Counted from the stretch's first letter, positions 44,030-62,573 are shown. The stretch is 64,000 nt of DNA from Nitrospirales bacterium (GCA_029261255.1 JAJDBQ010000109.1:1-64000), one strand, 5' to 3'. Numbers and translations: made by a program. Notes: generated from the letters alone by a model not told the origin.

Positions 44030-45709
44030 AATTCTTACCGTTAAGATCTATGCTATTGGTCTTTGTAATAAAATACTAATGAATTTCCTTAGTGAACACT
44101 ATAGCATGCCAACATGATTTAACACTCGAATTCATCCTACGTTCGTCAACAATTCTGTCTCTGAATTCACACTAATACCAAAGGGAAAAAACTGAAATAA
44201 AAAATCCATCCACACTTCCATAATTGTAAATTTCATAGAATAGTACCGATAAGGGAAGGAGTACCAGATAGGTTCAAACACAAAAGACCTCCGGTTACAC
44301 CTGACCGCCAAAGCCCCCGCAATTAACTATCGAGACGCACTCTATTGAAGTAACGACCACCATTCCATGTTGCGGCATCTCAGGCTCCATACCGTTTAAA
44401 TCGGGACGGCGCTTGTCTTAAGAAAATCGAAAAGGATGCAGGAAATGAGCTTGACATATGATTCGGGAAGAGATCGTTATGGCGGCCAACTACGAAGGAA
44501 ATCCTTCCCACCACAAACAAGAAATTTACTTGAAATCTCAGAGATGCGTGGAACTCGAAAAAAGGTTGAAGTCCGTGCTTCTCCCCCCTTAAGCTACGAC
44601 ACTCTTCCCTTCATACAACGAGAAGATAGAAGAAATAAGAATAATCGTTGACAACACAACCCTGTAAACTGAAGCAACCCAGCCTCTCTAGAGCAAAGGG
44701 ATCGCCCTACGTGTGCATGAAGTGCTTCTTGCCAAGCACAATTGAATGGAACTTTCGTGGGATACAGAGGCCGCAGCATTATAACCCGACCCAGTAACAA
44801 GGGCTCTCTTACAGAATTTTGATCAATTTCCGATCTATGTATTTTTGAGCATTAGTTACTCTAAGCCCATCAGGCTTAATGCATCAGATTTTGAATGCGT
44901 GGAGGTTTTTGCGGCGAAACATCTACAATATAATCTCATTTATAAATAATGATTAAGAAGAAGACCCCTAGCTAACCCATGCAACCGCTTGGCCATACGA
45001 TGTGAGCACCATTGGCGGCACGATCAACCAGGTTTCCAAAGCACCAAACACACGACCTAATGCATTCACACTGTTGCAAGAAGAAGTTACGTTCCATTGT
45101 GCGTGCAGAAAGCTAAATTGACAATACGAGATGATTTTTTATATTATCCGCGGCTTGAATGGTCACTGGGATACGATTCTCGCTGTTTTAGAAAATAAAT
45201 TCCTCAACCACTCAATAGCCAAGAATTCTAAAAACAATTAACACTTTTGAAATTAAGATTCTATGCTGCAACAAGTCAGAAATTTTCGCAGTCGCTACAC
45301 AAAATAATGCACCTGCTGCAGTCGCTAGGAAAACCCCCATTCACTAAAAAATCCAGATACGGATTCCCCTTCTACGGACCACACCCATATACGGAGGAGT
45401 GCACTTTGTTTTTTTCACTTTTGGGAGATCCCATTGTCGCTGCTCGACCAAACTGACTGGAACCTTATAAACCAAGCAACAGGCTGGTTATCACCATAAA
45501 GTTCACAGATTATGCTGTAGTTCAAATTTTCATCTTGCACAAGCACCGAACTACCCGCTTTATCATTCCTCTCAGCAGTGATCAATTTCAAACAAATAGC
45601 CCTTGCCACTCGATGTTCGATTACTCAAGATCTCTAAGTGCTAAAATTGGCTTTCTATTAAACAGCCCGAGGCAACAAACGAAAGTGAAGTCCTAGGAAA
45701 ATTCTGACG
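44030..45709. other. 1.7-kb gene-poor stretch
   Basis: No frame longer than about 70 codons, none with a convincing ribosome site plus recognisable product. Both strands are broken by frequent stops, as in decayed sequence. It separates the minus-strand glycosyltransferases from the plus-strand sugar cluster. No tRNA, repeat array or IS ends were recognised. Confidence 0.5.
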
Positions 45710-46381
45710 ATGGGAACACGGGAAAATCAATACCAACTCCTACTGGAAAAGTTCAAAAAGCAGGGATTGGTGCCCCTTGGCTTGATGACTAACCAGGCCT
45801 GGGACGACGATCCTAAACGCCTCGCCTTTACATTTGCACGCTACAAATTTACAGCAAAGATGCTGTCGGGACGCAAGGACGTACTGGAAATCGGTTGCGC
45901 TGATGCATTTGCCAGCCGCATCGTACTACAGCATGTGGAACGTTTAACAGTGACAGACTTCGACAACGTCTTTATTGACGACATCAATTGCCGCCTATCA
46001 GAAAAGTGGCCAATGACATGCTTTCAACACGATATCTTGGCTGGTCCGGTGCCAGGTCAATATGACGGTATATACGCACTCGATGTACTCGAGCATATCA
46101 AACGAAACGACGAAGCCACCTTCATGGCCAACATGGTGTCTTCGCTGGCACCCCATGGGACTGCTATCATTGGCATGCCATCGCTCGAATCACAACCTTA
46201 CGCCTCACCCATTAGTCGTGAAGGCCATGTAAATTGTAAGTCGATGCCAGACTTGAGGGTATTAATGGAACAGTACTTTCATACAGTCTTCATCTTTTCC
46301 ATGAACGACGAAGTCGTTCACACAGGCTACCACAAAATGGCAAACTACCTACTGGCCATTTGCTGCGAGAGTCGGCAGTAG
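45710..46381 (+). CDS. Class I SAM-dependent methyltransferase
   Basis: 223 residues. Rossmann-type SAM site DVLEIGCADAFASRIVLQHV (motif I), TVTDFDNVF (motif II), and YDGIYALDVLEHI with motif post I/II. Similar to Methyltransf_11/23 proteins of polysaccharide clusters; the acceptor (sugar, lipid or protein) is unknown. TAGGAAAATTC lies upstream of the ATG. First gene of the plus-strand surface-glycan block. Confidence 0.85.
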   Translation: MGTRENQYQLLLEKFKKQGLVPLGLMTNQAWDDDPKRLAFTFARYKFTAKMLSGRKDVLEIGCADAFASRIVLQHVERLTVTDFDNVFIDDINCRLSEKWPMTCFQHDILAGPVPGQYDGIYALDVLEHIKRNDEATFMANMVSSLAPHGTAIIGMPSLESQPYASPISREGHVNCKSMPDLRVLMEQYFHTVFIFSMNDEVVHTGYHKMANYLLAICCESRQ

Positions 46382-46516: not shown

Positions 46517-47476
46517 ATGACATGTTTTTTACTCACTGGTGCCGCCGGGTTTATCGGTAGTACATTGACCGACCGACTCTTAGCTGATGGCCACCAGGTG
46601 ATTGGCATAGATAATTTTTCCACAGGCCGCCAGGAATTTCTAACCAATGCGTTGAAGAATCCTGCCTTCACTTTTGTCGAAGGTGATTTACTGAATCGGG
46701 ATCAATTGCTGAAAGCGATGCAACTGATGCCCGTGGATTTCGTCTACCATCTTGCCGCCAATGCAGATGTACGCTGCGGCACTGAAAATCCCCGCAAAGA
46801 CTTAGAACAAAACACCATTGCCACCTTCAACGTACTTGATACCATGCGTGAGGTAGGGGTGAAAAATATCGCCTTTTCATCTACCGGTTCCATCTATGGG
46901 GAGCCGGACGTGGTTCCAACCCCAGAAAACGCACCCTTCCCCATTCAAACCTCACTATACGGTGCCTCAAAGCTCGCAGGAGAAGGACTGATTCAAGCCT
47001 TTGCTGAAGGGTTTGGCTTCAGTACCTGGATTTTCCGATTCGTGTCTGTTCTGGGCGAGCGATATACTCACGGCCATATCTATGATTTCTGCCGAAGGCT
47101 TCAAAGTAATCCAACCCGGTTGGAAGTATTGGGCGACGGTAACCAGACTAAATCGTATATGTATGTACAGGACTGCATCGATGCAATGTTACTCGCCACC
47201 GCCAAGACTTCGAATCCGGTCAACATCTTCAATTTGGGAGTCGACGGCACAATCCAAGTGAGAGACTCCATATCCGTGATTATTAATCGGATGGGAGTCA
47301 AGCCTGAGCTGGTCTACGGCGAAAGTACGCGAGGGTGGATTGGCGATAGCCCCTTAATCCATCTGAACTGCGACAAGATTCGCGAAATAGGCTGGGTCCC
47401 TCGACTAACTATTCCCCAGGGAATCATAAGGACTCTCGATTGGCTACTGAACAATCAGTGGGTATTGAAACCGTGA
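46517..47476 (+). CDS. NAD-dependent sugar-nucleotide epimerase/dehydratase
   Basis: 319-residue extended SDR of the GalE/WbpP group. Cofactor motif LTGAAGFIGSTLTDRLL, YHLAANADVR, and the catalytic FSSTGSIYGEP (Ser/Thr) with YGASKLAGEGL (Tyr-x3-Lys). A functional C4-type epimerase is possible. It overlaps the next gene by one base (TGATG) and begins a six-gene tightly coupled cassette. An in-frame TTG nine codons earlier is less likely than the ATG used. Confidence 0.9.
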   Translation: MTCFLLTGAAGFIGSTLTDRLLADGHQVIGIDNFSTGRQEFLTNALKNPAFTFVEGDLLNRDQLLKAMQLMPVDFVYHLAANADVRCGTENPRKDLEQNTIATFNVLDTMREVGVKNIAFSSTGSIYGEPDVVPTPENAPFPIQTSLYGASKLAGEGLIQAFAEGFGFSTWIFRFVSVLGERYTHGHIYDFCRRLQSNPTRLEVLGDGNQTKSYMYVQDCIDAMLLATAKTSNPVNIFNLGVDGTIQVRDSISVIINRMGVKPELVYGESTRGWIGDSPLIHLNCDKIREIGWVPRLTIPQGIIRTLDWLLNNQWVLKP

Positions 47477-48771
47477 TGAAAATTTGCGTCTACGGACTCT
47501 GGCACCTCGGCTCGGTGACTGCAGCATGCCTTGCTGAGGCCGGCTTCGCCACCATAGGATTGGAAGATGATCCAAACGCCGTGAAAAACCTTGCTAATGG
47601 TACACCGCCCTTGTTTGAACCAGGCCTAGAGGAACTGCTTCGTTCAGGCCTGGCCAACGGAAAATTGTCTTTCACTGATGACGCGAAGACAGCTGTTGGC
47701 GATGCCGACGTTGTATGGATCACCTTTGACACACCTGTAGACGAAGAAGACTGCGCCGATGTTCATTCGGTGATGGCCCGCGTTACCTCACTGTTTCCCT
47801 TTTTGCGCGATGGAGCAATACTCCTCGTATCTTCCCAAATGCCCGTATGCAGCATTCAAAAGTTGGAAAAAGAGTTCGTGCTAACAGGAAGTTCGAAGCG
47901 GGTTACCTTCGCCTGCTCGCCAGAAAATCTCAGGCTAGGTAAGGCCATTGATGTGTTTCGCCAACCCGAACGAGTGATTGTTGGAGTGCGCGATGAAGAG
48001 AGCAAAGCCATCCTGAATAATTTGTTCACCCCGTTCAGCGATTCTATTATCTGGGTCGGCGTGGAGTCGGCAGAATTAGCGAAACACGCCATCAACGCCT
48101 TTTTAGCCACCAGTGTCACATTCATTAATGAGATCGCAACGGTCGCAGAAGCAGTTGGCGCTGATGCCCATGAAGTGGAACGAGCACTGCGCTCCGAGCC
48201 GCGCATTGGGCCCAAAGCCTATATCCGCCCCGGAGCGGCGTTTGCTGGAGGCACTTTGGCCCGTGACGTCAACTTCCTAGATGAAATAGCCAGACAGAAC
48301 GGCCTGCCTCTGACCATGATCGGTAGCATTTTGGAAAGTAACCGATTTCATGGAAACTGGTCACTACGACGCTTGACGGATAGACTCGGCAACCTCAAAG
48401 ACCGAACTATCGTTGTGTTGGGTCTGTCCTATAAGGCAGGCACCGATGCCATTAGGCGCTCATTGGCAGTGGAATTGGTCCATACCTTAGTGACTGCCGG
48501 AGCCAAAGTAGTAGCTTATGACCCTAAAGTGCTTGCATTGCCTTATCCACCGGCCAACTTTGTCATGGCCGACAGCATCACGCAGGCGCTGGCCGGGGCC
48601 AACGCGTTGGTAATCATGACAGAATGGCCAGACTTTAAATCCATCACCGCAGACGACATCCTAGACAACATGCTGACTTCCCTAGTCATCGATCAAAATG
48701 GTTTTCTGAATCATCTTGCCGACGATACTAGGGTTGAATTCCTCACAATTGGGAAACCGTTAAAAACATGA
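47476..48771 (+). CDS. UDP-glucose/GDP-mannose dehydrogenase family protein lacking catalytic Cys
   Basis: 431 residues with all three UGD-family regions: N-terminal Rossmann MKICVYGLWHLGSVTAACLAEAG (segment 1-23), central VESAELAKHAINAFLATSVTF with the active-site Lys and Asn, and C-terminal VLGLSYKAGTDAIRRSLAVEL. At the position of the catalytic Cys (family GFGGSCFPKD) the sequence is AFAGGTLARD: Thr260 replaces Cys and Arg replaces Lys. The usual second Glu of PEFLREG reads PENLRLG. A normal two-step oxidation to a sugar acid through a thio-intermediate is therefore unlikely. Translationally coupled on both sides. Confidence 0.88.
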   Translation: MKICVYGLWHLGSVTAACLAEAGFATIGLEDDPNAVKNLANGTPPLFEPGLEELLRSGLANGKLSFTDDAKTAVGDADVVWITFDTPVDEEDCADVHSVMARVTSLFPFLRDGAILLVSSQMPVCSIQKLEKEFVLTGSSKRVTFACSPENLRLGKAIDVFRQPERVIVGVRDEESKAILNNLFTPFSDSIIWVGVESAELAKHAINAFLATSVTFINEIATVAEAVGADAHEVERALRSEPRIGPKAYIRPGAAFAGGTLARDVNFLDEIARQNGLPLTMIGSILESNRFHGNWSLRRLTDRLGNLKDRTIVVLGLSYKAGTDAIRRSLAVELVHTLVTAGAKVVAYDPKVLALPYPPANFVMADSITQALAGANALVIMTEWPDFKSITADDILDNMLTSLVIDQNGFLNHLADDTRVEFLTIGKPLKT

Positions 48772-49625
48772 ACGGTATCAACATAGTCATCACGGGTGCC
48801 AGCATGGGCCTAGGTGCAAGAATAGCCGAAGAACTTGTACGCCAGGGTGCTTCTGTTCTTTTGTGTGCACGCGGTGCTGGCCCTCTCGATGAAATGGTCT
48901 CCCGTCTGAGAGAAATCGCTAGCTCTGCCCAAATAGTAGAAGCGATGACGTGTGACATCACCAATGAAATGCAAGTTGACGCATTGGGAGTCCGATCCTT
49001 GCAAGTTTTCTCTCATGTAGATGGCTTGATTAACAATGCCGGCGTGTATGGCCCATTCGGGCCCATTGAAGATGTGGACTGGGAAGAATGGAAACAAGCC
49101 ATAGCAGTCAATCTGTTCGGCACAGTTTATCCCTCACGAATATTCATACCTCATTTCAAGGCACGTCGTTATGGAAAGATTGTTAATATTTCTGGCGGAG
49201 GCGCGACTAATCCTCTACCCTGCATTTCGTCCTATGCTGCCTCAAAAGCCGCAATGGTGCGTATGTCCGAAACCCTGGCCAGAGAGGTGAGTGAGTTTGG
49301 TATTGATATTAATTCCATTGCACCCGGCGTATTGAATACTCGCCTGACTCAAGAATTGCTTGAGGCAGGAGCACAAACAGTGGGCGAGACTCTGTATGGC
49401 CGTATTAGCAGTATGGCCAAAGACGGTGAATCTTCGATCCGCAAAGCATCGGAGCTCGTAGCTTACCTCTGCTCACCCAGTAGTGATGGAGTGACCGGAC
49501 GTCTAATTTCCGCCTTGTGGGACCCCTGGCCAACACTGCACGAACGGAAAAATGAACTCGCCGACAGCGACATCTATACCATACGTCGAATCGTTCCCAA
49601 GGACCGCGGGAAGGATTGGGGTTAA
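48768..49625 (+). CDS. Short-chain dehydrogenase/reductase
   Basis: Classical SDR, 285 residues. Cofactor motif VITGASMGLGARIAEEL (Gly-x3-Gly-x-Gly), NNAGVYGPFG, and the active site ISGGG ... SSYAASKAAM with Tyr-x3-Lys and the preceding Ser. Oxidises or reduces an alcohol/ketone with NAD(P). It overlaps the upstream gene by 4 bases and the downstream gene by up to 10. Cassette context points to a sugar or sugar-nucleotide substrate, as inference. Confidence 0.9.
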   Translation: MNGINIVITGASMGLGARIAEELVRQGASVLLCARGAGPLDEMVSRLREIASSAQIVEAMTCDITNEMQVDALGVRSLQVFSHVDGLINNAGVYGPFGPIEDVDWEEWKQAIAVNLFGTVYPSRIFIPHFKARRYGKIVNISGGGATNPLPCISSYAASKAAMVRMSETLAREVSEFGIDINSIAPGVLNTRLTQELLEAGAQTVGETLYGRISSMAKDGESSIRKASELVAYLCSPSSDGVTGRLISALWDPWPTLHERKNELADSDIYTIRRIVPKDRGKDWG

Positions 49626-50599
49626 CATTGCGTCTCGGTATTATCGGATGCGGCTTGATTGGAGAGAAGCGGGCGTCGTCTGCCAAGAACCACGACATTG
49701 TTATTGCCTATGACCTAAACCAAGATCGCGCCAAAACATTAACGGCTAAACATGGGGGGGAAGTTGCCAACGATTGGCACGACGTAATCGCTGCCGATCT
49801 TGACGCAGTGATAGTCGCTACGACCCATGATGCTTTGGCAGAAATATCTCTAGCAGCCGTTCAGGCAGGTCATCATGTGTTGGTGGAAAAACCAGGTGGC
49901 CGCAACTCTGACGAAGTATTGCCAGTTGTTGAGGCAATGCGAACCCATAGTCGGGTAGTAAAAGTGGGGTTCAATCATCGATTCCATCCATCGTTGCAAA
50001 AAGCCAAGGCCTTGGTCGAGGCCGGTGAGACCGGACCATTACTATACATTCGCGGCCGCTATGGTCACGGTGGTCGACTAGGCATGGAAAAGGAATGGCG
50101 TTGTGTCCCACGTCTATCCGGTGGAGGCGAATTAATTGACCAGGCACCACACTTAATCGATCTGTCTCGGTGGTTCCTAGGTGACTTGAACCTGGAATAC
50201 GGTATTGCTCCAACGTTGTTTTGGGATATTCCTACAGACGACAATTGCTTCCTGGCCTTACAAACACCCAGCGGACAGATCGCTTGGCTGCATGCAACCT
50301 GGACTGAATGGAAGAACATGTTCAACTTCGAAATTGTCGGTCGTAACGCTAAGCTGGTAATAGATGGATTGGGAGGGTCCTATGGCTTGGAACGTCTGAC
50401 TTTATACAAAATGTTACCCCAAATGGGTCCACCGGAAACCACTATTTGGGAATACCCATTCCCCGATAGGTCATGGCAACTAGAATTTGACGATTTCACT
50501 GCTGCCATCCAAGAGGGTCGACGAGCCTGCGGCGACATCGAGGACGCTTACGAGGTCCTAAAGATAGTGGATAAAGTATATGGCAGGATAGCCCAATGA
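49616..50599 (+). CDS. Gfo/Idh/MocA family oxidoreductase
   Basis: 327 residues. N-terminal Rossmann LRLGIIGCGLIGEKRASSA, the family Lys in HVLVEKPGGRNSDE, and LIDQAPHLIDLSRWFLGDL with the active-site His/Asp region; the C-terminal sheet domain follows. Members oxidise, reduce or rearrange sugar hydroxyls/ketones, including nucleotide sugars. The start is a TTG; another TTG four codons later (after a GGGG stretch) is an alternative. Ends overlap the kinase start by 4 bases. Confidence 0.9.
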   Translation: MGLTLRLGIIGCGLIGEKRASSAKNHDIVIAYDLNQDRAKTLTAKHGGEVANDWHDVIAADLDAVIVATTHDALAEISLAAVQAGHHVLVEKPGGRNSDEVLPVVEAMRTHSRVVKVGFNHRFHPSLQKAKALVEAGETGPLLYIRGRYGHGGRLGMEKEWRCVPRLSGGGELIDQAPHLIDLSRWFLGDLNLEYGIAPTLFWDIPTDDNCFLALQTPSGQIAWLHATWTEWKNMFNFEIVGRNAKLVIDGLGGSYGLERLTLYKMLPQMGPPETTIWEYPFPDRSWQLEFDDFTAAIQEGRRACGDIEDAYEVLKIVDKVYGRIAQ

Positions 50600-51576
50600 T
50601 CATTGTCCGCGCACCACTTCGCATAACGCTCGGCGGCGGAGGCACCGACTTGCCTTCCTATTATCGCAATCATGGCGGCTCTCTCATTGCTGCGGCAATC
50701 AACAAATACATTTATCTAACTATCCACCAAACATTCGTCGAAGACATGATTGTCAAATACTCGCAAATGGAGCGAGTATCAACACTGGAGCAACTGCAAC
50801 ATCCCCTCGTACGCGAATGCTTCAAGCTGTTGGAAGTACCAGGCAACCATCTAGAAGTCTCCAGCTTAGCTGACATTCCCGCAGGCACCGGCCTAGGGTC
50901 ATCCGGCAGTTTTTGCGTTGCTCTGCTACAAGCGCTCTACTGTCACCGTAAGCAGCCAGTCTCATCTGAAACATTGGCGCAATTGGCCTGCGAAGTGGAA
51001 ATCGATCGCTTGAAGGAGCCTATAGGAAAGCAGGATCAGTACATCGCCGCGTATGGCGGCGTGACTTGCTTCGATTTTAACTGCAATGACACCGTCAATA
51101 CCGCAGCACTAAATTGCTCGCAAGAGGCTATCTATAACTTGGAAGAAAATCTCTTGCTGTTTTTCACCGGCTATTCCCGAAAGGCCTCCAGTATCCTGAA
51201 GGATCAAGACCAGCGAAGCCGCCAAAACGACCCAGAAATGATCGACAACTTGCATTTCATCAAGGATCTTGGGCAGCGCAGTAAAAAAGCTTTAGAAATA
51301 GCCAACCTACATGAATTCGGCCGTCTGATGCATGAGCATTGGCTATTCAAACGCAATCGGTCACCATCCATGACTAACGACTTGGTGGACGAATGGTACA
51401 AGATTGGCATGCGCAACGGTGCAGTCGGGGGGAAACTGGTGGGGGCTGGTGGGGGCGGGTTCATGCTGTTCTACACAGAAGATCGTATACGCTTGCGCCA
51501 TGCCATGACCGAGAGCGGGTTAAAGGAAGTGCGCTTCAACTTTGACTTCGAAGGGGCGAAAGTGATCGCGAATTAA
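50596..51576 (+). CDS. hddA: GHMP kinase, D-glycero-D-manno-heptose 7-phosphate kinase-like
   Basis: 326 residues. GHMP motifs: RAPLRITLGGGGTDLPSYY (motif 1), PAGTGLGSSGSFCVALL (ATP loop), GKQDQYIAAYGG (characteristic of HddA-type heptose-7-phosphate kinases) and GGKLVGAGGGGFMLFY (motif 3). HddA phosphorylates D-glycero-D-manno-heptose 7-phosphate at C1 on the way to GDP-heptose, but related sugar kinases share these motifs. The isomerase and phosphatase of that route (GmhA, GmhB) are not in the window. Coupled to the MocA gene; the nucleotidyltransferase starts 43 bases downstream. Confidence 0.82.
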   Translation: MIIVRAPLRITLGGGGTDLPSYYRNHGGSLIAAAINKYIYLTIHQTFVEDMIVKYSQMERVSTLEQLQHPLVRECFKLLEVPGNHLEVSSLADIPAGTGLGSSGSFCVALLQALYCHRKQPVSSETLAQLACEVEIDRLKEPIGKQDQYIAAYGGVTCFDFNCNDTVNTAALNCSQEAIYNLEENLLLFFTGYSRKASSILKDQDQRSRQNDPEMIDNLHFIKDLGQRSKKALEIANLHEFGRLMHEHWLFKRNRSPSMTNDLVDEWYKIGMRNGAVGGKLVGAGGGGFMLFYTEDRIRLRHAMTESGLKEVRFNFDFEGAKVIAN

Positions 51577-51619
51577 TTCGACGTATGCCTGACCAAATCA
51601 ATATTTATGGGGAAACCAG

Positions 51620-52342
51620 ATGAAGACGATGCCCCCTATCGCAGTGATTGCAGGCGGGCTAGGAACACGTCTTTATCCCGTCACCAAAACAATCACAAAG
51701 TGCCTGGTGGATGTATGTGGCACACCATTCATTGATCATCAACTTCGACTATTTGCCCGTTGTGGACTGCATAAGGCAGTATTCTGCGTCGGCCATTTGA
51801 GCGAGCAGGTCGAGGCCTATCTCAATGAGCACGATACCCACGGCGTTGAGGTTCTGCTCTCTCACGATGGCGATGTTTTGCGTGGCACTGGAGGGGCCTT
51901 GTCCCATGCTCTGCCCTTGCTAGGTACGGAATTCCTGGTCACCTATGGCGACAGTTATCTAGACATTAACTATCGAGCAGTCGCTGAAACCTTTCGCCGA
52001 TCTCAGGCCTTGGCCTTAATGACGGTTTTTCATAATGAGAATTCATGGGATACCAGTAACGTCGAATACGACGGACAACAGATCATCGATTATGATAAGA
52101 AGAATCGCACATCGCGCATGGAATATATTGATTATGGTCTCCTGGCTATGCATATCGACGCGTTTAAAAACTGGCGAGATCGAAAAGCATTTGACTTAGC
52201 AGAGCTCTTGAGCACGATGGCCAAGAATCAGCACCTTGATGGCTATGAGGTTCACCAACGCTTCTATGAGATCGGTTCTCAAGCCGGCATCGCCGATCTG
52301 TCAGAATATTTGACAAGGTGCTCGTCACCTAGCCAAACATGA
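51620..52342 (+). CDS. Sugar-1-phosphate nucleotidyltransferase, HddC/RfbA-like
   Basis: 240-residue nucleotidyltransferase. Signature VIAGGLGTRLYPVTKTITKCLVDV, GTGGALSHALPL, and the metal-site TYGDSYLDI. It would activate a sugar-1-phosphate with NTP; GTP for a heptose is suggested by the HddA-like neighbour, but UTP/CTP/dTTP cannot be excluded. Last gene of the six-gene cassette, followed by 730 bases without a gene. Confidence 0.87.
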   Translation: MKTMPPIAVIAGGLGTRLYPVTKTITKCLVDVCGTPFIDHQLRLFARCGLHKAVFCVGHLSEQVEAYLNEHDTHGVEVLLSHDGDVLRGTGGALSHALPLLGTEFLVTYGDSYLDINYRAVAETFRRSQALALMTVFHNENSWDTSNVEYDGQQIIDYDKKNRTSRMEYIDYGLLAMHIDAFKNWRDRKAFDLAELLSTMAKNQHLDGYEVHQRFYEIGSQAGIADLSEYLTRCSSPSQT

Positions 52343-53074
52343 ATTAATTTCGCCAAGTGGCTTCGGCCTTTGAGATGAGAAACAAGCATCTCAAGGCAAA
52401 GACGTTGGAACTTTTAGCATACGACATTTCACAGTTCCGTTACGAATCGAAGATGAATCGATAATGAAAGCGCACATGCCATAGAGCAACATTCGTTAAG
52501 GAGAGTCCATCGAACTTTATTTTGTAATTACCCTAAACAATGCAAAGAAGACCACATACCGATGTACTCTAACCTCATGACCTCACAGGGATAGAAAACA
52601 AGCTCGGCAAATACTTGGCTCCAAGCACCATCGTAAGGACACATCAAATAGGACATTCAAACACTTAAGAAATTGAGGGAAGCTGGCTTTAAAGGTGCCG
52701 ATTTTTTTGCACTAAGAGAGTATATTCAACCATGCCGAGTTGAAATATAGTCGTCCACATCAGCCCTGAATTATGGAGAGCTGAAAATTTTCCCTGCCGC
52801 CACTAGCATAGTGAAGCGTGCGCGCTAAGGAGCAGGAACAAACCAGCTAAATAGTAAGAATCTCTAAAATGGCCAAAGACTCCATAGCATGTAAGCAGTT
52901 AACCCAAAAAATAGATATATTACAGAATCAATCCGTTGCCATTACATAGGGTTCAGATGACTGAATATCTCAAAATATTTTATTGGCGTAATTGACAGTC
53001 CGACTGGCTATGACACACTTGATTGGATATTAAAAACGCATTGGCACGTCTTCTGAAATTTTTGCAAAGTCGTC
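52343..53074. other. 730-base gap without recognisable gene
   Basis: Frequent stops in all frames, no ribosome site with a plausible product, no RNA gene or IS ends seen. It separates the sugar cassette from the methyltransferase-exporter set. Confidence 0.45.
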
Positions 53075-54238
53075 ATGATGTCTGACATGCATTGCTGCCA
53101 AGTTTGCAGGAACTTGTCGCTCGCCGAAGTCGAGCAATACAAACAAGTTACAAGAGTTACATCAGATTGCAAGCCTTTTGACAAAGGTGGGCGGCTCGCC
53201 GTATGTATGGCCTGTGGGGCTGTCCAGAAGCCAACCGATGATATTTGGCAGGCAGAAGTTGATAAAATCTACAAACAATACACACCATATTACTCATCTG
53301 GTGGGAAAGAACAGTTTGTCTTTGATCCCATATTAGGGACCCCAAGCTCACGCAGTTCAATCATTCTTAACCGTTTGATGGAATCATTAACTGTGCGTGC
53401 AACAGGCTCGGTACTCGATATAGGAAGCGGAAATGGCGCACTGCTTTCAGCCTTTTCAAGCATCCGCCCACAATGGGTACTACACGGTCACGATCTTTCT
53501 GATATCAACATCACGGCACTAGAGTCTATTCCCGGCTTTCAAAAGCTTTACACCTGCCCATTGCCTGAAATTCCTGGTAGCTATGATATTGTTACCTTGA
53601 TCCATTCCTTAGAGCATTTTGTATCCCCTTTGGAAAACCTAAGGGCAATAAAGCATTTAATTAAGCCAGATGGGCTCCTGCTCATTCAAGTCCCCAACGC
53701 AGAAGCCACACCATTTGATCTTCTGGTTGCAGATCACGTCACCCACTTTACACTGCATCACCTGATGCGCCTACTCTATGATACGGGCTATGGTTTAGAG
53801 GTAGTCGCCAACAATTGGGTGACTAAGGAGTTAACGGTAGTCGCTCGCCCACAACCTGAGCCTGTAATATCCCTGCCGGAAGCGCCAGCACCCGAGGATG
53901 TTCTACGACGAGTAACCGCTCAAATTAATTGGCTGAACAGTATCGTCAAAGACGCAGAGAATGTCTCACGTGAGACGGACCAGTTTGGTCTATTTGGAAC
54001 ATCAATTGCGGCCACTTGGCTTTATGGGCAATTGGGTGATTTGGTGAAATTTTTCGTAGACGAAGATCCGAGTTGTATCGGGCGAGCAATCGATTGCAAA
54101 ACAATCTATGCGCCATCCAAAGTCCCATCTGCAGCGGTGGTCTATGTCATGCTGATCCCACATGTCGCGCAAGCTGTGGCCGCTCGACTTTCGGGATTCA
54201 ATATTGACCTGCGCCTACCGCCTGAGATTCAGCATTAA
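53075..54238 (+). CDS. Zinc-ribbon class I methyltransferase (sugar C-methyltransferase type)
   Basis: 387 residues in three parts. N-terminal putative zinc-binding module with CQVC and CMAC (residues ~8-50), a Rossmann SAM domain (SVLDIGSGNGALLSAF, DIVTLIHSLEHF, ~110-260), and a C-terminal domain with FGLFGTSIAATWLYGQLGDL and VDEDPSCIGRAI (segments), as in Methyltransf_13/14 enzymes. Members such as TylC3/NovU-type proteins C-methylate keto-sugar nucleotides at C3. That would suit a deoxy- or branched-sugar product, but the substrate is not shown by sequence. Confidence 0.87.
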   Translation: MMSDMHCCQVCRNLSLAEVEQYKQVTRVTSDCKPFDKGGRLAVCMACGAVQKPTDDIWQAEVDKIYKQYTPYYSSGGKEQFVFDPILGTPSSRSSIILNRLMESLTVRATGSVLDIGSGNGALLSAFSSIRPQWVLHGHDLSDINITALESIPGFQKLYTCPLPEIPGSYDIVTLIHSLEHFVSPLENLRAIKHLIKPDGLLLIQVPNAEATPFDLLVADHVTHFTLHHLMRLLYDTGYGLEVVANNWVTKELTVVARPQPEPVISLPEAPAPEDVLRRVTAQINWLNSIVKDAENVSRETDQFGLFGTSIAATWLYGQLGDLVKFFVDEDPSCIGRAIDCKTIYAPSKVPSAAVVYVMLIPHVAQAVAARLSGFNIDLRLPPEIQH

Positions 54239-54404
54239 AATGCGTCATAGTCAAATTAGACACGTATGAATGCCATGGCTTCCTCAGATATAAGATGGGC
54301 GCAATGAAAATCCACAATGGGCCGAGGGCAGGAGACTGCCGCAGCCTTGAGGTGAAATTCCTAAACATCGAGACTTTTTGAACATTCAAAACTCAATACA
54401 AGCC

Positions 54405-55208
54405 ATGAGTAATTCAAAATCGCAATGGGCCTTAGCCTTTCAGGACGTGGTTAGCGGCATCTCAACGTATCATCTTTGGTGGTCAATTAGTTGGCATGAA
54501 GTTCGGCAACGCTATCGCCGGTCTCTGCTAGGGCCGTTCTGGATGACCATTAGCATGGGTGTACAAGCATTAGTCTTTGGATACCTTTTGGGCTTTCTCT
54601 TTGGCCACGAGACCAACCGATTTCTGCCCTACGTGTGCGTGAGTCTAGTGACCTGGTCACTAATCGCCGGCTGCATCATCGAGGGCGCAAGCACGTTCAT
54701 TGGGAGTGCCGGCGTAATGACACAGATACGCCGTCCTCTCAGCAGTTACATCATGCGGACCATCGCCCGTAACGTGATCCAGTTTTTTCATGCTATCGTC
54801 ATATTCTTTGTAGTGGCGATTCCTTTCGGGATTTATCCCACACTAGCCTCATTGTGGGCCTTATTCGGATTATTCCTGGTGATTGTCAATCTTATCTGGA
54901 TGGGAATGATTGCGGGAATTGTGTCTACTCGCTATCGCGACGTGCCAATGATCATCGTGAATATATTCTCAGTGCTCCTATGGCTGACGCCAGTTTTGTA
55001 TTACCCCTCACAAATGACCGGGCAACGGGCATGGATCACAATGCTCAACCCCTTTTCGTATTTCCTTGAAGTGGTGCGCGATCCGTTAATGAACGAACCG
55101 TTGAGAGTACAAAGCTTCGCTTTGCTCATAGCCTTCGCCATTGTAGGATGGCTTATTACCCTAAAGTTATTCGCCCGTACACGCGGCCGAATCGTGTATT
55201 GGTTGTGA
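54405..55208 (+). CDS. wzm: ABC-2 type polysaccharide exporter, permease
   Basis: Wzm/KpsM-type integral membrane subunit, 267 residues, about six helices (LVTWSLIAGCIIEGAST, NVIQFFHAIVIFFVVAIPF, LIAFAIVGWLITLKLFA). The family start SWHEVRQRYRRSLLGPFWMTIS is clear, and LLWLTPVLYYPS is the typical periplasmic loop. With the ATPase encoded next door it moves a completed, lipid-linked glycan to the outer face of the inner membrane. The ATG is preferred over an upstream in-frame TTG. Confidence 0.93.
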   Translation: MSNSKSQWALAFQDVVSGISTYHLWWSISWHEVRQRYRRSLLGPFWMTISMGVQALVFGYLLGFLFGHETNRFLPYVCVSLVTWSLIAGCIIEGASTFIGSAGVMTQIRRPLSSYIMRTIARNVIQFFHAIVIFFVVAIPFGIYPTLASLWALFGLFLVIVNLIWMGMIAGIVSTRYRDVPMIIVNIFSVLLWLTPVLYYPSQMTGQRAWITMLNPFSYFLEVVRDPLMNEPLRVQSFALLIAFAIVGWLITLKLFARTRGRIVYWL

Positions 55209-55212
55209 TCCT

Positions 55213-56013
55213 ATGATGCCACAAATTTCTCTCAAGGGAGTGTCCGTCGATTTCCCTATCTACGATCCAAACGCACAATCCCTACGCCATGTTTTGTTCA
55301 TCAATCGAATTAAAGTTGCGCAACGGGCTTTCACCGAAGGAAAAATTGGCGGTTCGGTTGGCCAGGACCAACATGGCCACACCATAGTTCGGGCCCTCAG
55401 CGACATCAACCTCGAACTTCACGCTGGCGACCGACTTGGCCTTATCGGCCACAATGGGTCTGGGAAAACAACCCTCCTGCGTGTTCTGTCTGGCATTTTC
55501 GAACCCACTGCTGGTGAGATCACACTCAGTGGGACTTCCATGACCTTATTCAATATTACCGAGGGCATGGACCCCGACTCCACTGGCATGGAACTTATCC
55601 GAGTGCGTGGCTATCTGATGGGATTGAGTCCTGCCGAAATAAACAGGATCACGGATGACGTTATTGAGTTCTGCGAGTTGGGAGAATTCATCGATCTTCC
55701 CACACGGACCTATTCTGCAGGGATGTTCGTACGCTTGGCTTTTGCCATTACGACGGCCATTACCTCCGATATCTTACTGATGGACGAAATCATCGGCGCT
55801 GGAGACGCGGCCTTCATCGAACGTGCAGAACAGCGCCTGCAGAAATTTATCGACCGGTCAGGGATTCTGGTAGTTGCAAGCCATAGTCCAGGAATTCTGC
55901 AAAAGTGGTGCAACAAGGCCATGCTTCTAGAGCACGGGCGCATAGTAATGCTGGGCGCTGTTGACCCTGTGCTCGAGTTCTATCAATCCAAGGTCACAGA
56001 CCAGAACGTATAG
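55213..56013 (+). CDS. wzt: ABC-type polysaccharide exporter, ATP-binding subunit
   Basis: 266-residue Wzt/KpsT-type ATPase. Walker A GHNGSGKTTLL, signature RTYSAGMFVRLAFAI, Walker B DILLMDEI with GAGDAAF after it and the H-loop VASHS. It starts 4 bases after wzm. It lacks the ~150-residue C-terminal carbohydrate-binding domain of O9-type Wzt, so export should not depend on a terminal cap recognised by that domain. Confidence 0.94.
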   Translation: MMPQISLKGVSVDFPIYDPNAQSLRHVLFINRIKVAQRAFTEGKIGGSVGQDQHGHTIVRALSDINLELHAGDRLGLIGHNGSGKTTLLRVLSGIFEPTAGEITLSGTSMTLFNITEGMDPDSTGMELIRVRGYLMGLSPAEINRITDDVIEFCELGEFIDLPTRTYSAGMFVRLAFAITTAITSDILLMDEIIGAGDAAFIERAEQRLQKFIDRSGILVVASHSPGILQKWCNKAMLLEHGRIVMLGAVDPVLEFYQSKVTDQNV

Positions 56014-61115: not shown

Positions 61116-62573
61116 ATGACGGAAAACAATCACAATAATTTCAAAGAGCTATCTTCCCTTCAGGCCACTATTGAAGGTCCACAACTTACAATAAAAAAAC
61201 GCGAAGAAACAGATACTGATATGTTCTTGCGCCGCTGCTATCAAGAAGACCGGGAAGCCGACACACGCATGTGGGAAGCGAAGGCTCACACCAATTACAT
61301 GCCCAATGAAGTGAACATTCAGATTTCACGGCGGTGCAACATACGCTGCAAGATGTGTGGATGGGAAGCCTGGGAGCGAAACACGGGTTCCATGTCCTTC
61401 GACCTATTCAAGCACGTCATTCGCGAACTCAAGACCAATGAAATTGGAAAAATCCACCTGACTTCGGCCCAAGGAGAACCTCTGCTAAACCCCAACGCGT
61501 TTGAATTCATGGCCCATGCCATCGACGAAGGGCTTTCCGTGTTCTTTAGTACCAATGGGACAACCCTCAGTCAAACGAACATCACCAAAATCTGCGCGTT
61601 AGCACAAAAAGGCGATTTAACGATGATTGCCTCCTTTGCTGGCTATGACAAGGAAAGCTATGAAAAAGTCTATGATGGTGCGAATTTCGAGAACGTATCT
61701 AGAAACATCAAACTCCTGAATGAACAGTTGCAAGCAATTGGTCGACAAGACATCCTCGAAATTCGAGGCGTCATATTCAATAGTAATCAAAAACAACCCA
61801 GCATCGATTTCCTGAAGGGGTTGGGGGTTGAAGAAAATCGTATCCACATAGTCTTGCCGGATAATTTTGCAGGTAAGATTGAAGTGGGAAGGAAGTCGTC
61901 ACGCCACAATGTCTTCTCATTGAAAACTAGGCTCAGTGAAAGGCCTTTGCGACTTTGCTCAATCCTGTTGAACATTATGGTTGTATACGATGATGGCAAG
62001 GTTTCTGCTTGTGGTTGTCGTGACTCAGAAGGTGTCATGAATATTGGGGACCTCACCAAGGAAAGCTTTAAGAATATTTGCAATAGCGAAATGTACAAAA
62101 GCATGATTCAAAGCCACCTAGACCGGAATATTGATTCAATGCCATTGTGCCGTAGTTGCGACGTTCCTTACGGAGAGCCGCAACAGTATCCTGATCCCAA
62201 AAGGGAGATAGAACATGCTATCGCCGATGGTAAATTCGAAAAGGCCCTCAAGCTGATAGAAAAGGAATTGCTTCAAGATCCAAATAAAACCATCCATGTC
62301 GAACAACACATCCGCGTCAATAAAATGATGGGCCAAGTACCACGAGCCTTAAAGAGCGCCACCCGTTTGGTCGAGCTGTTACCGACTGACATGAGTATTC
62401 GGCTGTTGCGAGCCAACCTCCAATACGAGCTTCAAATGTGGTCTGGAGCCCTGAATGATTATGAGACGATTTTGTCGAGTACCCCCTCAGAAATTTCAGT
62501 ATCCTTTGAGGAAATTATCGCGAATCGTGATTTTGTTCAGAGAAAAATACAAGAGAACACGTCATGTACTTGA
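61116..62573 (+). CDS. Radical SAM/SPASM protein with TPR-like tail
   Basis: 485 residues. Radical SAM core (~65-260) with the cluster motif CNIRCKMC; strand LTSAQGEPLLNP includes the GEP SAM-binding motif. The SPASM region (~285-355) has LCSIL, CGCRD and the C-x2-C of CRSCD, so one or two auxiliary clusters are likely. Residues ~370-480 contain helical TPR-like repeats (KFEKALKLIEKELLQDPN, GQVPRALKSATRLVELLP). GAGGAGTGAG precedes the ATG. SPASM enzymes modify peptides, and a few modify sugars or heptoses; the cluster position suggests a glycan or glycopeptide substrate (inference). Confidence 0.88.
   Translation: MTENNHNNFKELSSLQATIEGPQLTIKKREETDTDMFLRRCYQEDREADTRMWEAKAHTNYMPNEVNIQISRRCNIRCKMCGWEAWERNTGSMSFDLFKHVIRELKTNEIGKIHLTSAQGEPLLNPNAFEFMAHAIDEGLSVFFSTNGTTLSQTNITKICALAQKGDLTMIASFAGYDKESYEKVYDGANFENVSRNIKLLNEQLQAIGRQDILEIRGVIFNSNQKQPSIDFLKGLGVEENRIHIVLPDNFAGKIEVGRKSSRHNVFSLKTRLSERPLRLCSILLNIMVVYDDGKVSACGCRDSEGVMNIGDLTKESFKNICNSEMYKSMIQSHLDRNIDSMPLCRSCDVPYGEPQQYPDPKREIEHAIADGKFEKALKLIEKELLQDPNKTIHVEQHIRVNKMMGQVPRALKSATRLVELLPTDMSIRLLRANLQYELQMWSGALNDYETILSSTPSEISVSFEEIIANRDFVQRKIQENTSCT

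Follow-up and report, generated by a model that had tools for sequence, protein, structure and literature searches.

A putative lincosamide-type octose pathway, with a short-chain dehydrogenase in place of the aminotransferase, in a surface-polysaccharide locus of a Nitrospirales bacterium

Which activated sugar is made by six closely packed genes at positions 46,517 to 52,342 of a 64,000-nucleotide stretch of DNA from a Nitrospirales bacterium (GCA_029261255.1, JAJDBQ010000109.1:1-64000)? This whole stretch is called the window here, and positions are counted from its first letter. The original prediction, made from the sequence alone, held these genes to be a translationally coupled pathway for an activated sugar, matching no known complete sugar pathway. 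The positions of the open reading frames, together with Pfam and NCBIfam, confirm the order, families and tight spacing of the six genes, and the idea of one coupled pathway is supported. All six lie on the plus strand; we name them, the short-chain dehydrogenase (SDR) excepted, after their relatives in the lincomycin (lmb) cluster of Streptomyces:

46517-47476, plus strand: M, NAD-dependent epimerase of 319 amino acids, LmbM relative (Pfam Epimerase, 2.3e-50)
47476-48771, plus strand: L, protein with the fold of UDP-glucose 6-dehydrogenase (UGD), LmbL type (Pfam UDPG_MGDP_dh domains)
48768-49625, plus strand: SDR, short-chain dehydrogenase (Pfam adh_short)
49616 or 49628 to 50599, plus strand: Z, Gfo/Idh/MocA oxidoreductase, LmbZ relative (Pfam)
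50596-51576, plus strand: P, GHMP sugar kinase, relative of LmbP and HddA (Pfam GHMP)
51620-52342, plus strand: O, sugar-1-phosphate nucleotidyltransferase, LmbO relative (Pfam NTP_transferase)

Successive genes overlap by 1, 4, 10 and 4 bases, and a 43-base gap then precedes O. The 10-base overlap between SDR and Z exists only with the TTG at 49616 as the start of Z; the TTG at 49628, which leaves a 2-base gap, is the more likely start, as it gives a more usual N-terminus. All six frames are open and their catalytic motifs intact (YGASK and TGAAGFIG in M, YAASK and NNAG in the SDR, EKP and D-x3-H in Z, GGLGTR in O), with the exception of L, in which a Thr replaces the catalytic Cys.

We propose that the cassette is the M-L-Z-P-O part of the lincosamide guanosine diphosphate (GDP)-octose pathway with an SDR added, and it seems likely, from the comparisons that follow, that it belongs to an eight-carbon pathway of lincosamide type feeding a surface polysaccharide. 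The octose part of the lincomycin cluster consists of R, N, P, K, O, M, L and Z (PMC4351081 Table 2; PMC12945683), and GDP-octose is converted to GDP-lincosamide by LmbM, LmbL, CcbZ and CcbS (PMC12945683). For the comparison, Streptomyces loci were located by their R-like transaldolases, and the Lmb proteins were then searched against stretches of the Nitrospirales genome. The reference locus, L114, is the authentic lincomycin cluster: no difference was seen when its LmbT was aligned with the solved protein (PDB 8IXP, 8IL0), and its gene order, K-L-M-N-Z-P-O-S-R, is the published one (PMC4351081 Table 2). Among the own-genome stretches searched, the best matches of five Lmb proteins are the cassette proteins: LmbM with M (37% identity over 294 residues, E 7e-61), LmbL with L (36% over 412 residues, E 7e-61), LmbZ with Z (37%, E 2e-54), LmbP with P (35%, E 2e-38) and LmbO with O (31%, E 2e-24). 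LmbK, LmbN and LmbR find their best matches (43%, 31% and 28%) on another contig, C72. In the reverse direction, window Z searched against the whole genome of the lincomycin producer has LmbZ at the top with 8e-55, the next of 13 matches standing at 1e-18, 36 orders of magnitude away; the pair are thus reciprocal best matches.

Relatives of the tailoring enzymes LmbM, LmbL and LmbZ are therefore all present in the cassette, and those of the C1 kinase, the 8-phosphatase and the guanylyltransferase (LmbP, LmbK and LmbO) are present as well, P and O in the window and K on C72. In all, eight of the nine enzymes of the lincomycin/celesticetin (lmb/ccb) octose pathway (LmbR, N, P, K, O, M, L, Z and S) have relatives here, five in the cassette and three some 30 kb away, and the block Z-P-O has the same order in both. 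The two systems differ in that the aminotransferase LmbS is absent here and an SDR is present instead, in that N, K and R lie apart from the other genes in this genome, and in their setting, which here is that of a surface polysaccharide. LmbT and LmbV, of thio-sugar formation and condensation, gave no match at E 0.1 in the window, the end of its contig C12 or C72; the search was confined to these two condensation genes. The view that the set matches no complete pathway is thus not supported: it largely follows that of the lincosamide GDP-octose (LmbR, N, P, K, O, then LmbM, L, Z) and, by homology, appears to be a variant of a characterised pathway, with the SDR for LmbS.

The original prediction had pointed to the same gene order in other genomes as a check. 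Relatives were sought in one genome per species, which gave at least 80 further loci, with 83 analysed in all; these were picked by similarity to the kinase, and the counts given here describe this sample of listed loci and not all genomes. The complete order M-L-SDR-Z-P-O recurs in 37 of the 83, so that it is not due to chance. The SDR is found in 57, transaldolase R in 64 and isomerase N in 66. Complete sets of nine genes are seen in 29 loci, which represent at least nine phyla and include two archaeal loci; Rhizobium tubonense and Desertibaculum subflavum are cultured environmental isolates that have such an intact set. Because L is missing from 14 loci and 16 have P-O without Z, the octose gene set is modular. 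Close relatives of the kinase (about 60% identity) occur on Rhizobium plasmids and on a plasmid of Lawsonia intracellularis, an obligate intracellular pig pathogen. The latter, plasmid 3 (NC_008014.1; L003), carries the nine-gene set minus M, in the order SIS isomerase, HAD phosphatase, transaldolase, membrane protein, UGD homologue, SDR, MocA, kinase and nucleotidyltransferase; it adjoins glycosyltransferases and a permease of the ATP-binding cassette (ABC) type, and its kinase is annotated as a galactokinase.

Four further Streptomyces genomes (G527, G484, G169 and G514) contain lincosamide-like octose clusters (L113, L115, L116 and L117, respectively), with LmbS-type aminotransferases 53-74% identical to LmbS. 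In another actinobacterial genome (G178; L107:85-10207, some stretches of which are masked), M, L, Z, N, K, R, P and O are joined by an aminotransferase of class IV and by what may be an acyl-CoA reductase, and this cluster probably makes a natural product of a new kind with a lincosamide-like octose. Two Streptomyces plasmid matches, L096 and L097, were rejected as lincosamide clusters, being of heptose type, one of them with a hygromycin-type APH(7'').

Where, then, would the octose come from? The isomerase and phosphatase had been reported missing, which is correct for the cassette and for the window, where no relative of N, K or R was found; both are nevertheless present downstream. The single close relatives of N and R in the genome lie on the 5.7-kb contig C72 (L090), with K between them; R belongs to Pfam TAL_FSA and N to SIS_2, K is a HAD phosphatase, and identity to the proteins of the Lawsonia cluster is 54% for R and 53% for N. 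C72 begins with exactly the 100 bases that end C12, and an epimerase frame runs continuously over the join. This places N-K-R at about 80.6-82.5 kb in contig coordinates, about 30 kb downstream of the cassette and on the opposite strand, in an assembly that is fragmented (251 contigs, 88% complete, 4% contamination) and in which the C12-C72 join, though overlap, reading frame and synteny support it, falls short of finished sequence.

N-K-R adjoin a second cassette (C12 70385-79527; L093:6385-15527) that encodes an HldE-like nucleotidyltransferase-PfkB fusion, a MocA protein, a UGD-like protein with Asn at the position of the catalytic Cys (GGNLERD), several epimerases, a methyltransferase and a split transketolase. 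Its product may be another octose, or a sugar that is longer still if the transketolase takes part. The same arrangement beside N-K-R is found in the relatives G823, G803 and G801, the split transketolase being seen in G823. It could accordingly be argued that N-K-R serve the second cassette only, and that the window genes are stranded, either idle or acting on a different precursor. N-K-R are indeed contiguous with the second cassette, the relatives G821 and G823 have them without a window-type kinase, and the window cassette occurs in no relative in this family of 49 genomes. Against this, none of the six window frames is broken and their catalytic motifs are in place, and the octose 8-phosphate that N and R would make could be common to both branches, with one N-K-R set supplying the two. 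We therefore regard stranding as improbable, though it is the most serious of the alternatives. That no window-type kinase above 41% identity was found among the 48 other genomes of the family suggests that the window cassette was probably acquired separately.

A slightly less probable alternative is a modified GDP-heptose pathway, in which an isomerase, a kinase, a phosphatase and a nucleotidyltransferase would produce GDP-D-glycero-D-manno-heptose and the other enzymes would turn it into an unusual heptose. Enzymes of the same superfamilies (isomerase, C1 kinase, phosphatase, nucleotidyltransferase) make up the GmhA, HddA, GmhB and HddC pathway; HddA is the best NCBIfam match of P, and the nearest PDB relatives of P are solved heptose kinases. 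However, P scores 157.5 bits against an HddA cut-off of 600, a strict value that none of 14 control genomes reached, so that the shortfall alone is weak evidence, to which the kinase tree adds. In that tree window P falls in a clade of octose-cassette kinases (100/99), and a 100/100 branch divides it from the solved HddA/WcbL kinases. A dedicated transaldolase, moreover, accompanies the set in the 64 loci mentioned above and would be hard to explain for a heptose, given that sedoheptulose 7-phosphate belongs to housekeeping metabolism; the LmbL and LmbZ types, to which L and Z belong, are known only from octose chemistry, and M is likewise a tailoring enzyme of lincosamide type. A further pair of HddA-like kinase and nucleotidyltransferase, separate from these, is encoded on contig C244 of the genome (L091:6202-10980), with identities of about 34% to P and 29% to O of the window. 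The heptose reading was rejected on the transaldolase, the kinase tree and the LmbL/LmbZ relatives. The earlier view that kinase and nucleotidyltransferase resemble the GDP-heptose pair while the pathway is another one is thus upheld, and the heptose-7-phosphate it suggested as a test substrate is probably wrong, octose-8-phosphate being the better choice.

Returning to the lincosamide-type pathway, the steps to GDP-octose are said to have been characterised for LmbR, N, P, K and O, by Sasaki in 2012 and by Lin in 2014 (references 14 and 13 in PMC4351081), and a primary paper on LmbM, L, Z and S reportedly describes 6-epimerisation, 6,8-dehydration, 4-epimerisation and 6-transamination. By homology, which is our guide to the reactions, the C8 chain length, the GDP carrier and the stereochemistry alike, transaldolase R would build octulose 8-phosphate from ribose-5-phosphate and a three-carbon unit, SIS isomerase N would convert this to octose 8-phosphate, P would yield octose 1,8-bisphosphate, K would remove the 8-phosphate, and O would form GDP-octose. 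M, L and Z would then change the stereochemistry at C4 and C6, and L, if it acts like LmbL, would leave CH3 in place of the terminal CH2OH, together with a 6-keto group. The SDR stands in place of LmbS, which puts an amino group on C6 in lincomycin producers, and would most likely reduce the ketone to an alcohol. Finally, the surrounding glycosyltransferases and ABC exporter would move the sugar of GDP-octose into a glycan.

The SDR has no counterpart in the lincomycin octose set and probably replaces the aminotransferase. With an SDR and no LmbS, the simplest prediction is that the 6-ketone is reduced and the octose is 8-deoxy and non-aminated; we tentatively put forward the non-aminated 8-deoxy GDP-octose as the exact product. 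An amino-octose like that of lincomycin could be made if the genome had an aminotransferase gene at some other place, M, L and Z being common to the lincosamide producers. This is quite unlikely: no LmbS relative was found in the window, the end of C12 or C72, or beside the cassettes of the 83 loci, and the SDR occupies the locus.

The sequence of L bears on a last alternative. Like UGD, L has the full-length fold, the NAD site and the conserved Lys and Asn, and it scores 300.8 bits to the nucleotide sugar dehydrogenase subfamily of NCBIfam. In alignment with true UGDs, however, the catalytic Cys of GGSCFPKD is replaced by Thr in AGGTLARD, with LARD for FPKD. Thr occupies this position in all 48 LmbL-type proteins, LmbL included, so that the lmb pathway has the same change; SPENLRLG-like and KHA.NA-like motifs also occur, and a tree splits the LmbL-type proteins from three true UGDs at 100/100. 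In UGD chemistry the Cys is required for the second oxidation, and a carboxylate should not form in its absence; a uronic-acid product is therefore unlikely, and a nucleotide-activated uronic acid, formed by oxidation of C6 as in many O-antigen loci, was rejected as highly improbable despite the UGD fold and score. Annotation of UGD-family proteins with Thr for the catalytic Cys as uronate-forming dehydrogenases is unwarranted.

Several points weigh against the lincosamide-type pathway proposed here. Identity to the Lmb proteins is just 28-43%. In the kinase tree LmbP, which would be expected to unite with window P, lies outside its clade and joins hygromycin-type kinases on long branches, so that the lincosamide link comes from the other genes. 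O scores slightly better with the MurU model (98.8 bits, cut-off 250) than with that of HddC, and it is the LmbO and HddC relatives that suggest GDP as the carrier, as the LmbR relative suggests the C8 substrate; a MurNAc-type salvage was rejected because the module is one of biosynthesis and its kinase does not resemble AmgK. In same-genus genomes N-K-R accompany the HldE-type second cassette, with no window-type kinase, and for this reason we can only infer that the window cassette draws on N-K-R as a shared resident octose supply. A single product cannot fit all the relatives, as some lack L, and we know of no octose of lincosamide type so far demonstrated in these organisms.

As for the fate of the sugar, genes for GtrB, a methyltransferase and GtrA lie directly before M in many of the related loci, which suggests transfer of the octose to a surface polymer via a lipid-linked intermediate. 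The likeness to GtrA/GtrB side-chain glycosylation does not extend to the present window, where such genes do not adjoin the cassette and the exporter is of ABC type. That this enzyme set recurs among surface-polysaccharide genes in at least nine phyla, on the Lawsonia intracellularis plasmid and in archaea related to methanogens leads us to predict a new class of cell-surface sugar. In the literature searched, GDP-octose chemistry is documented only for lincosamide antibiotics, and the only octoses described in polysaccharides are branched ones made another way (paulomycin/yersiniose type) and bradyrhizose; the accessible portion of the literature on the bradyrhizose cluster names no such enzymes. 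The lincomycin-type octose is probably a widespread, unnoticed cell-surface sugar. More speculatively, a non-aminated 8-deoxy octose may be common in bacterial and archaeal surface glycans, as a building block or side-chain, and the lincomycin sugar may have been recruited from this older surface pathway by exchanging the SDR for an aminotransferase. Named enzymes and a named substrate are now available for testing, together with a possible source of the lincomycin sugar pathway.

Around the cassette the window contains the following genes:

45710-46381, plus strand: S-adenosylmethionine (SAM)-dependent methyltransferase directly upstream of the cassette (Pfam Methyltransf_25)
53075-54238, plus strand: SAM-dependent methyltransferase downstream of the cassette (Pfam Methyltransf_23)
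54378-56013, plus strand: polysaccharide exporter pair of the Wzm/Wzt type, an ABC-2 permease with its ATPase (Wzm and Wzt of galactan export are the top-scoring NCBIfam models)

The exporter pair scores 237.8 (Wzm) and 259.6 bits (Wzt), under the model cut-offs of 380 and 400. No link was found between the methyltransferase at 45710-46381 and those accompanying other octose cassettes. Between O and the downstream methyltransferase there is a geneless gap of 732 bases (52343-53074); with 44030-45709, which lies within a low-GC region (40-42%), it makes two stretches lacking clear genes that flank the cassette, as if from a past insertion or gene loss. Farther on, at 61116-62573, a radical SAM protein with SPASM and TPR-like domains is encoded inside the polysaccharide region.

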